Positions 54,616-60,353 of a DNA stretch of 64,000 nucleotides are shown here, piece by piece. The stretch comes from Paludisphaera mucosa (GTDB lineage Bacteria; Planctomycetota; Planctomycetia; Isosphaerales; Isosphaeraceae). The stretch's first letter is position 1. Each line of letters begins with the position of its first letter. A program made the translations under genes and the position numbers. Below the pieces are notes generated by a model that did not search any database, was not told the DNA's origin, and worked only from the letters and a program-made list of their open reading frames with translations. The stretch lies in assembly GCF_029589435.1 (NCBI RefSeq), contig NZ_JARRAG010000002.1:1550001-1614000 (forward strand). Reading direction: 5' to 3'.

Positions 54616-54644
54616 TTGCCCGCGGGGACGAGTTGGTTTAGATT
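54616..54644 (+). promoter_or_regulatory. candidate lpxD-lpxI promoter
   Basis: TTGCCC and TAGATT are separated by 17 bases, about 150 bases before lpxD. Confidence 0.4.
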
Positions 54645-54801
54645 CCCGGCGGCCGGCAAGGCCGACGACGGATCGGAACGGATCGCGGCTCCCAGGGAAA
54701 CGGATTTCCAAAGAGACCGGACTGGAACGGAAGCTCCACCTCCTGATTCGTCGCCTTGGTCCTTCCTGGTCTGCTCCTTTCAGGGAAGAAAGGAATCGCC
54801 A

Positions 54802-55920
54802 GTGGTCGCAACGGTCGAACAGCTCGCGGCCTTGGTCAGCGGCCGCCTCGTGGGCGACGGCAACGTCGCCATCCGCTCGGCGCGGCCGGTGGACGAGGCG
54901 GGCCCCGGCGACATCACGTTCATCGAGAACGAGCGCTACGCGAAGCTGCTGCGGACGTCCCCGGCGTCCGCCGCGATCGTCGGCCCCCACTTCCGCAGCA
55001 AGCGCACGCCGGTCAAGGACACCCTGGCCGTGATCGAGGTCGACGACCCGATCGCCGCGTTCATCATGGTGCGGAAGCACCTCTCGGGCGCGAGCAAGGC
55101 CCGCTGGGTCGGGGTCCACCCCCAGTCGTGGGTCGCCCCCACGGCGCTGATCGGCCCCGAGGCCGCCATCTACCCGTTCGCCTACGTCGGCGACCAGGCG
55201 GTGGTCGGCGAGGGCTCGACGATCCATCCCGGGGCCGTGGTCGGCGACCGCGTCCGCATCGGCCGCGACTGCGTCATCCACCCCAACGTCGTGCTCTATC
55301 CCGACGTCGTGCTGGAGGACCGGGTCGAGATCCACTCGGGCACCGTGCTGGGCGGCGACGGCTTCGGCTACCGCCAGGTCGACGGCCGGCACGTCAAGGT
55401 CCCCCACACGGGCCGCCTCGAAGTCGGCTCCGACGTCGAGATCGGCGCGAACTGCACGATCGACCGGGCGACCTTCGAGGCCACCCGGATCGGCGAGGGG
55501 ACCAAGATCGACAACCTGGTCATGATCGCCCACAACAACCAGGTCGGCCGCCACAACCTGCTCTGCGCCCAGGTCGGGATCGCCGGCAGCTGCAAGACCG
55601 GCGACTACGTCGTGATGGCCGGCCAGGCCGGGATCAAGGACAAGACCGTGATCGGCGACGGCGTGGTGGTCGGCGCCCAGGCGGGCGTGCACCGCAACAT
55701 CCCCAGCGGCCAGCAGGTGCTCGGCTCGCCGGCGATCCCCGTCCGCGAGCAGCGCCGGCTGTTCCAGATGATCGCCCGGCTCCCCGACATGTACAAGCAG
55801 CTCCGCGAGCTGACCGCCCAGATCGAGGCCGTCTCGGCGATCCTGCCGATGACCCCCAGCCACGACGGGACCGTCGGCTTCGACGACGGCGACGGGGCCG
55901 CCGACCCGACCGGCTTCTGA
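54802..55920 (+). CDS. lpxD: UDP-3-O-acylglucosamine N-acyltransferase
   Basis: The 372-residue protein starts at GTG with AAAGGA seven bases upstream. The N-terminal LpxD domain (VEQLAALVSGRLVGDG, DITFIENERY) leads to a left-handed beta-helix of hexapeptide repeats (TVLGGDGFGYRQVDG, GANCTIDRATF with the region of the catalytic His in IAHNNQVG). It adds the second acyl chain in lipid A synthesis. A C-terminal extension of about 40 residues is longer than usual. lpxI follows 28 bases downstream. Confidence 0.95.
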   Translation: MVATVEQLAALVSGRLVGDGNVAIRSARPVDEAGPGDITFIENERYAKLLRTSPASAAIVGPHFRSKRTPVKDTLAVIEVDDPIAAFIMVRKHLSGASKARWVGVHPQSWVAPTALIGPEAAIYPFAYVGDQAVVGEGSTIHPGAVVGDRVRIGRDCVIHPNVVLYPDVVLEDRVEIHSGTVLGGDGFGYRQVDGRHVKVPHTGRLEVGSDVEIGANCTIDRATFEATRIGEGTKIDNLVMIAHNNQVGRHNLLCAQVGIAGSCKTGDYVVMAGQAGIKDKTVIGDGVVVGAQAGVHRNIPSGQQVLGSPAIPVREQRRLFQMIARLPDMYKQLRELTAQIEAVSAILPMTPSHDGTVGFDDGDGAADPTGF

Positions 55921-55948
55921 GCCCGAATCTCAACCAGGGAGACTCGAC

Positions 55949-56872
55949 GTGCCGTCGCTGCAGGAAACGACCCGTCGCGGCCTGGGACTGGGCCGCCTCC
56001 GCCGGGGCCCCGCCCGCGTCGACCCCGACGCGCCCGCGATCGGCCTGCTGGCCGGCAGCGGCCGGTTCCCGATCCTCTTCGCCGAGGCCGCCCGCCGCCA
56101 GGGCTACGCCGTCGCCTGCGTGGGGATCCAGTACGAGGCCCCCGCCGAGCTGCGCGAGATCTGCACCACGTTCGACGTCGCGGGCGTGGCCAAGATGGGC
56201 CGGATGATCCGCACGTTCCGCCGCCGCGGCGTGAAGGAGATCGTCATGGCGGGCAAGGTCACGAAGAACGTGATCTACACCCCCATGCGCTGGCTGCACC
56301 TCTGCCCCGACCTGCGGACCGTCCAGTGGTGGTACCGCCGCGACCGGGCCGACAACCGCGACGACTCGCTGCTGCTCTCCGTCATCGCCGAATTCGAGAG
56401 GGACGGTATGACCTTCACCTCGGCACTCGACTACTGCCCGGAACTCCTCGTGAAGGAGGGGGTCCTCACCCGCCGCGCCCCGTCGCCCGCGGAGCGCCTG
56501 GACGTGCAGTTCGGCTGGCGGATGGCCAAGGAGATGGGCCGCCTCGACGTCGGCCAGTCGGTCGCGGTCAAGGAGAAGGCCACCCTGGCGATCGAGGCCA
56601 TCGAGGGGACCGACCGCTGCATCGAACGCGCCGGCCAGCTCTGCCGGGCCGGCGGCTGGACCCTGGTGAAGGTCGCCAAGCCCCAGCAGGACATGCGGTT
56701 CGACGTCCCCACCATCGGCGTGAAGACCGTCGAGAACCTCCACAAGGCGGGCGGCCGCGTGCTCGCCGTCGAGGCCGACAGGACCATCGTCGTCGACCAG
56801 CCCGACGTCGTCGCCCTCGCCGACCGCTACGGCATGACGATCATCGCCGTCCGCGACGACCCCGCCGCCTGA
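55949..56872 (+). CDS. lpxI: UDP-2,3-diacylglucosamine diphosphatase LpxI
   Basis: The 307-residue protein has an N-terminal extension of about 28 residues, then the LpxI domain: IGLLAGSGRFPILFAEAAR, TFRRRGVKEIVMAGKVTK, DDSLLLSVIAEFERDGM and FDVPTIGVKTVENLHKAGG. LpxI makes lipid X from UDP-diacylglucosamine and replaces LpxH in many bacteria. It follows lpxD directly, an order that fits pathway coupling. LpxB, which uses its product, is about 11 kb upstream. Confidence 0.93.
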   Translation: MPSLQETTRRGLGLGRLRRGPARVDPDAPAIGLLAGSGRFPILFAEAARRQGYAVACVGIQYEAPAELREICTTFDVAGVAKMGRMIRTFRRRGVKEIVMAGKVTKNVIYTPMRWLHLCPDLRTVQWWYRRDRADNRDDSLLLSVIAEFERDGMTFTSALDYCPELLVKEGVLTRRAPSPAERLDVQFGWRMAKEMGRLDVGQSVAVKEKATLAIEAIEGTDRCIERAGQLCRAGGWTLVKVAKPQQDMRFDVPTIGVKTVENLHKAGGRVLAVEADRTIVVDQPDVVALADRYGMTIIAVRDDPAA

Positions 56873-57129: not shown

Positions 57130-57150
57130 CCTTCTCCCGGGGGGAGAAGG
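57130..57150. repeat. palindromic hairpin repeat
   Basis: A perfect 9-bp stem CCTTCTCCC/GGGAGAAGG has a 3-base loop. It resembles the second half of the compound palindrome at 28294-28345, so it could belong to the same dispersed family, or serve as a terminator of lpxI. Confidence 0.4.
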
Positions 57151-57168
57151 GTCAACGCCGCGGAGCTT

Positions 57169-57186
57169 CACCTGGGTTTTTAGGTG
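57169..57186 (+). promoter_or_regulatory. candidate BlaI operator 1
   Basis: CACCT and AGGTG are separated by 8 bases and lie just upstream of the -35 element of the predicted promoter. Confidence 0.5.
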
Positions 57187-57192
57187 ATACTC

Positions 57193-57221
57193 TTGACGGA
57201 CCGACAAGGACTCGCTACTTT
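57193..57221 (+). promoter_or_regulatory. candidate promoter of the BlaI-M56 operon
   Basis: TTGACG and TACTTT are separated by 17 bases. It lies between operator 1 and operator 2, and the transcript would start about 30 bases before the ATG. Confidence 0.5.
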
Positions 57222-57222
57222 T

Positions 57223-57245
57223 CACCTAACTTAATAAGTCAGGTG
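57223..57245 (+). promoter_or_regulatory. candidate BlaI operator 2
   Basis: A 23-base palindrome, CACCT...AGGTG with a near-symmetric core ACTTA-A-TAAGT, has 10 of 11 pairs. It covers the predicted transcription start and overlaps the ribosome site by its edge, a typical repressor position. Confidence 0.55.
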
Positions 57246-57259
57246 GAGGGAGGCGAACC

Positions 57260-57658
57260 ATGTCCGAATCGGAGCCGAGTCCGAGGGAGCTGGACGTGCT
57301 CAAGGCGCTCTGGGCCCTGGGCTCGGGGAGCGTGCGCGAGGTGCATCAGCGGATGTGTCCCGGGGGCGAGCTGGCGTTCAACACGATCCAGACGCTGCTG
57401 CGGATCATGGAGACGAAGGGGCTCGTGCGGCATCGCGCCGACGGGCGGACGTTCGTCTACGAGCCGACCTACACGCGCGACCGGGTGACCTCGCGGCTGC
57501 TGAACCGGATGTTCGACGGGGCGCTCGATCAGGTGGTTTTGAGCCTGCTCGAAGTCAAGGACGCCAGCGGAGCGGAGCTTCGCGAGCTGGAGCGGCTGAT
57601 CGCCGCGGCGCGGAAGCGGAAGGAGTCCGGAGGCGGCACGAACACCGAAGGAGGCTGA
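57260..57658 (+). CDS. BlaI/MecI-family repressor
   Basis: The 132-residue protein is a BlaI-type winged-helix repressor: SPRELDVLKALWALGSGSVREV, FNTIQTLLRIMETKGLVRHR and RTFVYEPTYTRD, with a C-terminal dimerisation helix (ALDQVVLSLLEVK). Family repressors are inactivated by proteolysis triggered by a partner M56 protease. GGAGG precedes the ATG. Its stop is one base before the start of the M56 gene, so they form one operon. The two palindromes upstream are its likely operators. Confidence 0.93.
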   Translation: MSESEPSPRELDVLKALWALGSGSVREVHQRMCPGGELAFNTIQTLLRIMETKGLVRHRADGRTFVYEPTYTRDRVTSRLLNRMFDGALDQVVLSLLEVKDASGAELRELERLIAAARKRKESGGGTNTEGG

Positions 57659-57659
57659 G

Positions 57660-60353
57660 ATGGACTGGCCGATCTTCGACGGCGGCCGGCTGGCGAACGC
57701 CGCCGGCGGCGGCCTGGTCGTCCTCGTCCTGGGGAGCCTGGCCGTCCGACTCAGTCGACAGCCCGTGCATCGCGCCCGGCTCGTCGTCCTGACACTGCTG
57801 GGCGCGGCCGCGATTCCCGGCCTGGCCGCCCTGCCCTTCACCCCCCGATGGTCGCTGGGCCTCCTCCCGGCGTCGGCCGTCGCTCCGCCGGTCGAGCGGA
57901 AGACGGCCGCCCCGATCGCGGCGAGGCTCCACGATGAGACGGTCCATGAAGGACCCGTCGAGCGACCGTCGCCGAAGGCCCGTTCCGTCCAGGGATCCGC
58001 CGCACCGCCCGCCCCACGACGGGCCTCCTGGCGCGAGGTCGCGCCCTCGTTCGGGGTGATGGCGGCCGGGGCCTATATCGTCGCGGCGGCCGGCTGGGCG
58101 GGCTGGTGGTGGCTCGGGCAGTTCGCCCTCTGGCGGATCGCCCGCGCGGCGCGGCCGGCTCCGAGGGCGGCCCGCGACGTGTTGATCGACCTCGCCGGCC
58201 CCGCGGGCGAGCGGGTCCGATTGCTCGAAAGCGACCGGATCGCCCTGCCGTTCACGTACACCTGGCTCCGGCCGGTGATCCTGCTCCCCGCGTCGCTCTG
58301 CGACGGCCGGGAAGGCCGGGCGCTGCGTTACGCCCTGGCGCATGAGTGGTCGCACGTCGAGCGGCGCGACGCCTGGGGCTGGAACCTCGCCGGGCTGGCG
58401 GGCCTGGTCCTCTTCTATCAACCGCTGTTCTGGTGGCTCCGGCGTCAGCTCCGCCTCTGCCAGGACTATCTCGCCGACGCCCGCGCCGCCGCGGCGGGCT
58501 CGGCCGAGGACTACGCCGCGTTCCTCCTCCACCTCGCGCGGATCCACGAGGCCGGGCCGTCCCGGGCCGCCCTGGGGATCGGCGACCGTCGCTCGAGCCT
58601 GTACCGGAGGGTCGTCATGCTGATTCAGGACCGCGAACCGCTGGAGCCCCGCTGTCGCGCCGCCTGGAGCCTCGCCGCCGTGGCCACGTCGGCCGTCGTC
58701 GTCCTCGCCGCCTCGGGCCTCCGGCTCGACGCCGCCCCGGCCCCGAAGGAGGCCGCTGCTCAAGACGCCCCGAAGCCGCCCGAGGCCGCCAAACCGGCGG
58801 GCGAGACGCTGAACTACAAGGGGATCGTCAAGGACAAGGACACCGGCAAGCCGATCGCGGGGGCCGCCGTGGTCGTCCGCCGCTCGATCTATCGGGATGA
58901 CGTGTATCGGATTTTGCAGGAGACCCGGCACACGACCGCGGCCGACGGGACATTCGCGTTCACGATCCCCCCCGAGCAGGCGGCCGAGCGGGCGCTCTAC
59001 GTCCAACTGGACGTCGAGCACCCCGATTACGCCACCCGCACCGGGTTCGGCAAAGCCCTGGCGATCATCCGCAAGGACGAAGGGTTTGGAGTCCGGCCCT
59101 TCTTCGAGAGGATCGAATTGGACCCTGCGCAGCCGATCACCGGGCGCGTCGAGACGCCCGAGGGCACGCCTGCGGCGGGTGTCGAGGTGCATGCCTATTC
59201 CCGTGTCGACAAACACCCCTGGGGCATGTACGCGCCCGGCTCCTTCGCTCACACCAGGACGGACGTCGATGGCGCGTTCCGCTTGCCGATCACCACGCCC
59301 GGTCCGGGGGTCTTCTGGATCCTGCCGAAGACTTACGCCCCGCAGATGCACGTGCTGGCCGACGGCCGGCGCGGGGACCTCGGGACGTTTCGTTTGAAGC
59401 CGGGCGCGTCACTGACCGGGCGCGTCGTCGACCTCCAGGGGACGCCTCTCGCGCGCCTGCTGATCGCGGCCCGACGCGAGCAGGAGAGCGGGCCGGATGC
59501 CGACGCCCTCAACCAGATGAATGTCGCCGACAAGATCCGCAGCACGACCGAGACCGACGCTGAAGGGCGGTTCGTTTTCAATCACCTGCCCCCTGGGGAG
59601 TATCAAGTCGCCCCCACCGCCATCGATATCCGCGTGGACCCCTCGGAACGCCGGGGCCGCAAGCTGCCTGGGGTCTTCTTGCCGCGGAAGGTCTCGATCG
59701 CGGAGGACGCCACTCCCCCCGTCCTGGAGATCCGCGAATCGCCCCACGTCGTGGTCGAGGGCCGCTGGCTCGACAGCCAAGGGCGACCCAGATCGGGTTG
59801 GAGCAGCACTCTCTTCGGACAGATCGGCGGCGAATCCTGGTTCGCAAGAACCAACCCGGATTCGCAGGGGATCTTCTCGCTGATGGTCCCACGCGGGCTG
59901 CGGCTGGCGAAGGTCGACACCTTGGCGGGCGAGTACACCTCGATGCGACGCAGGATCGGCAAGGAGGCTCCGTTGGCGGTGGGCGAGATCGCCGACCTCG
60001 GCACGCTCGACCACGACGTCAAGGATTTCGACATCGTCCGCTACGACGCCCCGGTCATCCTCATCAACGCCACGACCAGGGAGGGGCGGCAGATCGAGGG
60101 ATTCCAGGCCGACGTCCAGTACCACGCGCTCGACCTGGAGGGCGATCCCGCGGTCCGCGTGCTGGGCGGGCGGCGACAGGCCGATTCGCTCCGACGCGAG
60201 ATCAACGACGGCCGCTATCGGACGTTGCAAATGCTGCCCGACCGCGAGGTGCTCGTCAGCGTGAGGGCCGACGGCTATGTCTCGGCGAGCCGGACCATGA
60301 AGCTGGCCGAGGGCCAGACGGAAGAGGCGACGTTCGTGCTCGAACCGAGGTGA
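57660..60353 (+). CDS. M56 (BlaR1-like) membrane protease with carboxypeptidase-regulatory-like domains
   Basis: The 897-residue protein has N-terminal membrane segments (about 17-30, 41-60, 132-152) and an M56 zinc-protease motif HEWSH (228-232), with CQDYLAD as the likely third ligand region. A further membrane segment lies at about 340-355. After a Pro/Ala linker come several beta domains, such as YKGIVKDKDTGKPIAGAAVVV, ITGRVETPEGTPAAGVEVHA and LTGRVVDLQGTPLARLLIAA, typical of CarboxypepD_reg-like repeats. BlaR1 has a penicillin-binding sensor there, and none is seen here. It probably senses something else outside the cell and relieves BlaI repression. Confidence 0.9.
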   Translation: MDWPIFDGGRLANAAGGGLVVLVLGSLAVRLSRQPVHRARLVVLTLLGAAAIPGLAALPFTPRWSLGLLPASAVAPPVERKTAAPIAARLHDETVHEGPVERPSPKARSVQGSAAPPAPRRASWREVAPSFGVMAAGAYIVAAAGWAGWWWLGQFALWRIARAARPAPRAARDVLIDLAGPAGERVRLLESDRIALPFTYTWLRPVILLPASLCDGREGRALRYALAHEWSHVERRDAWGWNLAGLAGLVLFYQPLFWWLRRQLRLCQDYLADARAAAAGSAEDYAAFLLHLARIHEAGPSRAALGIGDRRSSLYRRVVMLIQDREPLEPRCRAAWSLAAVATSAVVVLAASGLRLDAAPAPKEAAAQDAPKPPEAAKPAGETLNYKGIVKDKDTGKPIAGAAVVVRRSIYRDDVYRILQETRHTTAADGTFAFTIPPEQAAERALYVQLDVEHPDYATRTGFGKALAIIRKDEGFGVRPFFERIELDPAQPITGRVETPEGTPAAGVEVHAYSRVDKHPWGMYAPGSFAHTRTDVDGAFRLPITTPGPGVFWILPKTYAPQMHVLADGRRGDLGTFRLKPGASLTGRVVDLQGTPLARLLIAARREQESGPDADALNQMNVADKIRSTTETDAEGRFVFNHLPPGEYQVAPTAIDIRVDPSERRGRKLPGVFLPRKVSIAEDATPPVLEIRESPHVVVEGRWLDSQGRPRSGWSSTLFGQIGGESWFARTNPDSQGIFSLMVPRGLRLAKVDTLAGEYTSMRRRIGKEAPLAVGEIADLGTLDHDVKDFDIVRYDAPVILINATTREGRQIEGFQADVQYHALDLEGDPAVRVLGGRRQADSLRREINDGRYRTLQMLPDREVLVSVRADGYVSASRTMKLAEGQTEEATFVLEPR

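Follow-up and report, generated by a model that had tools for sequence, protein, structure and literature searches.

What does a BlaI-type repressor respond to, and which genes does it control, when its membrane partner carries no recognizable penicillin sensor? The question is raised by a gene pair in a window of 64,000 nucleotides (positions 1,550,001-1,614,000 of contig NZ_JARRAG010000002.1, assembly GCF_029589435.1) from the 8.2 Mb genome of Paludisphaera mucosa. The pair comprises a blaI-type repressor gene (57260-57658, + strand; 132 amino acids) and an M56 peptidase gene (57660-60353, + strand; 897 amino acids) separated by a single base, the layout from which a preliminary description had proposed a BlaI/M56 operon. 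The pair is a relay of this known kind; the ectodomain, the operator and the operon partners make the variant new. It is fairly likely to be an autoregulated one-component transmembrane relay of the BlaI/BlaR1 type with a different ectodomain. The pair probably senses something other than penicillin, because a five-domain stalk stands in place of the penicillin-binding part and the operator is found only at the pair's own genes. As judged from the operator, it would mainly control itself.

The BlaI protein has the conserved domain PF03965 (Penicillinase_R; E-value: 6e-23) with a score of 81.8 bits, over the cut-off of 22.6, and its sequence matches include the MecI/BlaI structures 1okr, 1sd4 and 1p6r. 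It does not reach the CopY/TcrY NCBIfam equivalog cut-off (46 bits vs 121.95). The M56 protein has PF05569 (E-value: 6.8e-15; 55.4 bits vs a curated cut-off of 31) and PF13620 (CarboxypepD_reg; E-value: 3.1e-27) in four stretches, and does not reach the BlaR1 NCBIfam equivalog cut-off (27.4 bits vs 400).

The C-terminal part of the M56 protein (residues 378-897; 58791-60350, + strand) is presumed to be extracytoplasmic and contains five prealbumin/CnaB-like beta-sandwich domains. The preliminary description had proposed several carboxypeptidase-regulatory-like beta domains over about 500 residues and no penicillin-binding domain, with structure prediction of residues 380-897 as a check. Both points are supported, the beta domains lying past the fourth transmembrane (TM) helix. 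Modelled alone, residues 378-897 (predicted local distance difference test score, pLDDT, 84.6; predicted template modelling score, pTM, 0.76) form five beta sandwiches by reading of the strands, from which the limits D1 383-489, D2 490-582, D3 583-696, D4 697-786 and D5 787-897 were also taken. No Transpeptidase or other penicillin-binding Pfam family was found in the protein at a limit of E 10, with filters that drop most matches above about 0.1, and no penicillin-binding fold is among the structure-search matches listed for the C-terminal part, for which a Foldseek list was also obtained. Structural matches, largely tied at Z about 8-10, are to domains of CnaB, pilin, transthyretin-like carboxypeptidase, teneurin and SusC N-terminal-extension type. 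They indicate a general binding or structural fold and no particular ligand, so that the glycan or wall-derived signal suggested in the preliminary description gains neither support nor contradiction from them. No relatives of this part were found in viral contigs.

The M56 part (residues 1-354; 57660-58721, + strand) consists of four predicted TM helices and a gluzincin domain, as indicated by PF05569, an AlphaFold model and alignment with BlaR1. The long helices of the full-length model (8 sequences; pLDDT 73, pTM 0.44) are at residues 8-31, 35-57, 131-163 and 328-354. By VIA-align, residues 7-325 match S. aureus BlaR1 (8exs; Z 19.0, root-mean-square deviation 3.6, 245 residues). The BlaR1 functional residues given in PMC9834060 (H201, E202, H205, D210, D246, Y261 and R294) correspond in a profile alignment to H228, E229, H232, D237, D273, Y285 and R317, all invariant in the eight aligned orthologues. 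These findings support a BlaR1-like protease core that is largely intact. By analogy with BlaR1, the protease would face the cytoplasm, with the C-terminal part outside.

Loss of the zinc-binding residues had been named beforehand as evidence against such a relay. The HExxH motif is kept as HEWSH (228-232), but the usual Glu third ligand is replaced by Asp269: the ExxxD position (E242xxxD in BlaR1) reads D269xxxD273, with D273 kept. The third ligand is Asp in 12 of the 14 orthologues read (Glu in loci L082 and L084), whereas it is Glu in all nine other M56 proteins of the P. mucosa genome and, by motif scan with no alignment, in all 80 surveyed planctomycete M56 proteins (the top-ranked matches outside this genome, minus G096:C68, which has an in-frame stop). 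As read from these sequences, the Asp ligand is a clade-specific change.

Two palindromes lie upstream of blaI. The upstream operator-like site (57168-57187, + strand) has the sequence TCACCTGGGTTTTTAGGTGA (CCTGG-N4-TTAGG), and the main operator (57223-57245, + strand) has the sequence CACCTAACTTAATAAGTCAGGTG (CCTAA-N9-TCAGG). The preliminary description had spoken of CACCT/AGGTG palindromes; they do exist, but outside the interval 57260-60353 that it gave. The two palindromes flank a putative core promoter, TTGACG-N17-TACTTT (57193-57221, + strand), placed by its position relative to the operator, and the TCACCTGGGTTTTTAGGTGA site ends 5 bp 5' of the -35-like hexamer. BlaI is a candidate for repression through a palindromic operator at this putative promoter.

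The motif CCTAA-N4/N9-TTAGG, with up to two mismatches in ten, is present in all 14 orthologous promoters, and its N9 form may be a pair of N4 sites that overlap with a 5-bp shift. Shuffling gives P values, flattering ones as discussed below, of 0.017 or less in 12 promoters, 0.047 in L089 and 0.09 in L082. The set of 14 was drawn without L090 (G069), whose BlaI is only 41% identical and whose upstream palindrome is of another type; L041-L044 and L046, taken as other paralogue groups (BlaI 34-45% identical); L040, L045 and L047, with no BlaI hit in the stretch; and L085, which is not planctomycete and has no BlaI match. For L084 and L091, among the 14, most of the match to the M56 query falls in the N-terminal half of the query, and L083 is cut by a contig end. 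In 13 of the 14, the operator keeps almost the same place relative to the promoter-like pair: 3-4 bp separate it from the end of the -10-like hexamer in nine, and the two overlap by 2-3 bp in four, the promoter of genome G030 being the exception. Taken by itself, the hexamer score is better than that of shuffled sequences (P of 0.053 or less) in nine of the 14. None of ten other BlaI promoters of the P. mucosa genome reaches P 0.05 for CCTAA-TTAGG (best L028; two mismatches, P 0.067). The TCACCTGGGTTTTTAGGTGA site pattern has no mismatches in the four Paludisphaera genomes with the pair; by eye, G014 and G002 have a degraded version and none is visible in G008. With the M56 query at E 1e-30, two of six genomes of the genus (G028 and G032) gave no match.

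The Paludisphaera form of the full operator, with three mismatches allowed, was found a single time in each of the seven genomes searched, always at the blaI/M56 locus. In G000, G030 and G029, the TCACCTGGGTTTTTAGGTGA site pattern (up to two mismatches) is confined to this locus; two-mismatch hits are scattered off the locus in G002, G008 and G031, with nine in G008 (one of them the main operator) vs five for the reversed control. ACCTAA-N4-TTAGGT (up to one mismatch) hits only the blaI/M56 locus in G014 and has no site in G000, G031, G030 or G029, which is weak evidence since the pattern misses the window's own sites. The looser CACCTN8-13AGGTG has four matches in the window vs 0.12 expected, two of them being the TCACCTGGGTTTTTAGGTGA and CACCTAACTTAATAAGTCAGGTG sites, and is not enriched in the genome (26 sites vs 50 for the reversed control). 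The preliminary description had assigned to the regulon the genes with CACCT/AGGTG palindromes and had suggested a genome-wide search. This regulon is not supported, because the operator is found only at its own locus and the loose palindrome is not enriched, and it was rejected, although the genes around the 24 remaining loose sites were not inspected.

BlaI cleavage is predicted at S95|L96, which aligns with MecI N101|F102. Among 94 BlaI proteins, the residue aligned with MecI F102 is Leu in 68, Met in 14, Ile in four, Ala in four, Phe in two, Tyr in one and Val in one, a pattern that may reflect only the dimer core. Comparison by eye of the autocleavage-loop residues of M56 with the cognate BlaI cleavage site gave no general match in 94 pairs, many of whose loops are unalignable; for L081 and L082 the two seemed to agree well.

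In other lineages, the strongest candidates for an output are genes encoding PSCyt2/PSD1 (DUF1549/DUF1553) and DUF1501 proteins, whose function is still given as unknown in Pfam. In L078 (an Isosphaeraceae metagenome-assembled genome, MAG), L080 (Gemmataceae MAG), L081 (Planctomycetia MAG) and L089 (G225), the M56 gene is followed by a PSCyt2/PSD1 gene on the same strand. A DUF1501 gene comes next in L078, L080 and L089 (confirmed by Pfam), and the L081 contig ends just past the start of an open reading frame (ORF) resembling one. These genes probably share a transcript with the pair. Within 2.5 kb downstream and on the same strand, a PSCyt2/PSD1 gene is present for four of 98 M56 genes (97 with at least 600 bp visible downstream), all four in the orthologue group of nine (eight and the window), vs none of the 89 planctomycete M56 genes outside the group. 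Being orthologues, the nine do not count as independent cases. The four PSCyt2/PSD1 proteins are mutually 42-56% identical (583-848 bits) and score no more than 448 bits against those from ten loci of the P. mucosa genome. Because of this mutual closeness, the linkage looks to have been inherited or transferred as a unit. The P. mucosa genome has 21 PSCyt2/PSD1-matching stretches elsewhere and none at the blaI/M56 locus. PMC2754498 suggests a redox role for PSCyt2/PSD1-type proteins and gives 41 occurrences of each of the two domains in Rhodopirellula baltica.

The proposed model for the relay is as follows. At rest, BlaI dimers would occupy CCTAA-TTAGG over the -10/+1 region and keep the operon low; the operator is shown by its conservation, and the promoter and the binding are presumed. 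The M56 protein would lie in the membrane with its protease in the cytoplasm and its five beta-sandwich domains outside, the fold being taken from the model and the orientation from BlaR1. Contact with a ligand or partner, which the membrane-proximal D1-D2 would most likely make, would shift the TM/protease module, and the shifted module would cleave BlaI within the dimerisation helix, close to S95|L96, a site placed by alignment. An external signal would in this way lead to cleavage. The operon would then be switched on, so that sensor and repressor are made in larger amounts. For Paludisphaera, this operon is the one target identified, and in several other planctomycetes the close, same-strand PSCyt2/PSD1 and DUF1501 genes would be the effectors.

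Several points weigh against this model. The pTM of the full-length model is only 0.44, and protease activity is not assured because most of the clade has Asp in place of Glu as the third ligand. The P values for the operator are flattering because the CCTAA-TTAGG motif was defined from the same 14 promoters. The hexamer score fails against shuffles in five of the 14, namely the window (0.127), G002, G029, G030 and L080, and a stricter consensus scan of the window found no promoter; the promoter call therefore rests on comparison. No ligand or pocket was identified for the ectodomain, nor any target besides the operon itself in Paludisphaera. By eye, the downstream DNA visible for four relatives beyond the group of nine (G031, G029, L084 and L091) has no PSCyt2/PSD1 gene.

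Alternatively, the five beta domains could be an inert stalk, or an adhesion or assembly module, with the signal sensed by the loop at residues 58-130, by the membrane or by an unlinked partner. The closest folds (pilin shaft, CnaB, teneurin and transthyretin-like) are often structural, and the distal D3-D5 are less conserved among eight orthologues (mean pairwise identity 0.35-0.41). However, D1 (0.55) and D2 (0.48) are conserved at least as well as the TM3/protease stretch (0.47), and the 58-130 loop is the least conserved part of the protein (0.23). Such constraint on the membrane-proximal domains, like that on the protease, argues against a pure spacer. This alternative as a whole is rather unlikely. 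A protease attenuated or killed by the Glu to Asp change, leaving the M56 protein to sequester BlaI by binding or to signal without cutting, is also unlikely. The contrast of Asp in 12 of 14 orthologues with Glu in every other protein surveyed speaks for it, but all other catalytic residues are invariant in the eight orthologues aligned, the diverged L082 and L084 keep Glu, and Asp can ligate zinc.

Two further alternatives concern the repressor. BlaI could be a broader regulator with many unlinked targets reached through degenerate operators. Searches with fixed patterns would overlook sites that are strongly degenerate. The relaxed N4 pattern misses even the window's two sites, so its silence elsewhere says little, and 24 loose CACCT palindromes stand in uninspected gene context. 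This is nevertheless quite unlikely given the single full operator in each of the seven genomes, the restriction of the TCACCTGGGTTTTTAGGTGA site pattern to the locus in G000, G030 and G029 and the lack of enrichment of the loose palindrome. It is very unlikely that an inducer acts in the cytoplasm directly on BlaI, as proposed for B. licheniformis with a peptidoglycan-turnover dipeptide. The precedent would suit the wall-derived signal suggested in the preliminary description, and the dipeptide is reported in PMC3305447 to bind BlaI/MecI and destabilise the repressor-DNA complex, but the conservation of an M56 protein dedicated to this repressor speaks for proteolysis as the chief route. The autoregulated transmembrane relay remains the preferred reading. 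Its single operator and nearly constant promoter position make it directly testable.

In a wider view, whose chances seem even, planctomycete BlaI/M56 pairs would form a general class of transmembrane one-component regulators: a common chassis of protease and repressor with swappable ectodomains (prealbumin stalks, WD40, HEAT, TPR and thioredoxin-like) and a private operator for each pair, allowing many relays without crosstalk. The present member would switch a PSCyt2/PSD1-DUF1501 operon in several lineages. If this is true, M56/BlaI is a reusable sensor chassis of which the beta-lactam form is one case, and not essentially an antibiotic-resistance switch; it would also provide a regulatory handle on PSCyt2/PSD1 and DUF1501 proteins.

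The surroundings of the pair vary among genomes. Just upstream of the blaI promoter is a CCTTCTCCCNNNGGGAGAAGG palindrome (57130-57150) with 45 copies in the genome vs none of the reversed control. Sixteen of the copies can be read as eight pairs about 120-127 bp apart, and the palindrome looks like a short dispersed element of the repetitive extragenic palindromic (REP) or miniature inverted-repeat transposable element (MITE) type. The genes at 54616-56872, which we take to resemble lpxD and lpxI of lipid A synthesis, are likewise found 5' of the pair in G031, and also in G030, where a further ORF lies in between. Downstream, a Gfo/Idh-type gene is present in the four Paludisphaera genomes with the pair at a variable distance (about 1.3 kb in between in G030) and was not found near the pair in G014, G002 or G008; for these reasons it is not counted among the targets. 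The interval from M56 to the next gene has no terminator-like site that was found, and its RNA-structure z-score is 0.30. In G002, two cellulase-family (GH5) genes lie downstream of the pair (Pfam).

The P. mucosa genome contains ten M56 and 11 BlaI matches, ten of them paired. Over the phylum, M56 exceeds its cut-off in 24 of 59 planctomycete genomes, with up to 16 matches at E 0.001 or less in one genome; the phylum search value of 4/392 is a lower bound, two candidates being scored per genome. The transpeptidase family has no match in the ten M56 proteins of P. mucosa and is not among the 25 most frequent families (each with at least three members) of the 80 surveyed, up to three of which may still carry it. 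One paralogous pair (L025:2941-7002; C2, about 2.70 Mb) has an M56 protein ending in CarboxypepD_reg and an AhpC/TSA-thioredoxin domain, which suggests a redox-linked version. Most BlaI paralogues of this genome (L022-L030) have private palindromes by eye, such as GTTAG-N4-CTAAC before L025 blaI and ATGGCAATCGATTGCCAT before L024 blaI, with none clear for L028, hinting at insulated repressors. An orphan BlaI (L032; C2:669409-669750) has a TGAGACAGTTGTCTTA palindrome upstream and no M56 match nearby. In the literature searched, which leaves most subscription papers outside, no title or abstract opening among those listed dealt with BlaI/M56 pairs of planctomycetes.

The pair can be compared with two groups of known systems. 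Like BlaI-BlaR1 and MecI-MecR1 of S. aureus, it has a repressor beside a membrane M56 gluzincin, the same TM/protease fold, an alignable repressor cleavage site and, except for one residue, the same catalytic set. Unlike them, the Paludisphaera protein has five prealbumin-like domains, no penicillin-binding sensor that could be found and an Asp third ligand. Its operator is CCTAA-TTAGG and not TACANNTGTA, which is the BlaI/MecI operator consensus of beta-lactamase control and which, with up to one mismatch, has no match in the window (0.52 expected by chance). With other planctomycete pairs it shares the two-gene layout (BlaI just upstream of M56 in 76 of the 80 surveyed and 10/10 in its own genome) and CarboxypepD_reg domains, present in 11 of the 80 and in four of its own ten M56 proteins. 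The others differ in C-terminal parts that are WD40-like (5 of 80), AhpC/TSA (5), TPR (4), HEAT (3) or unassigned, in their Glu third ligand, in upstream palindromes of another type (by eye) and in having no PSCyt2/PSD1 gene just downstream. The pair is therefore one of a class, from which three features set it apart: the operator, the Asp ligand and the operon partners.

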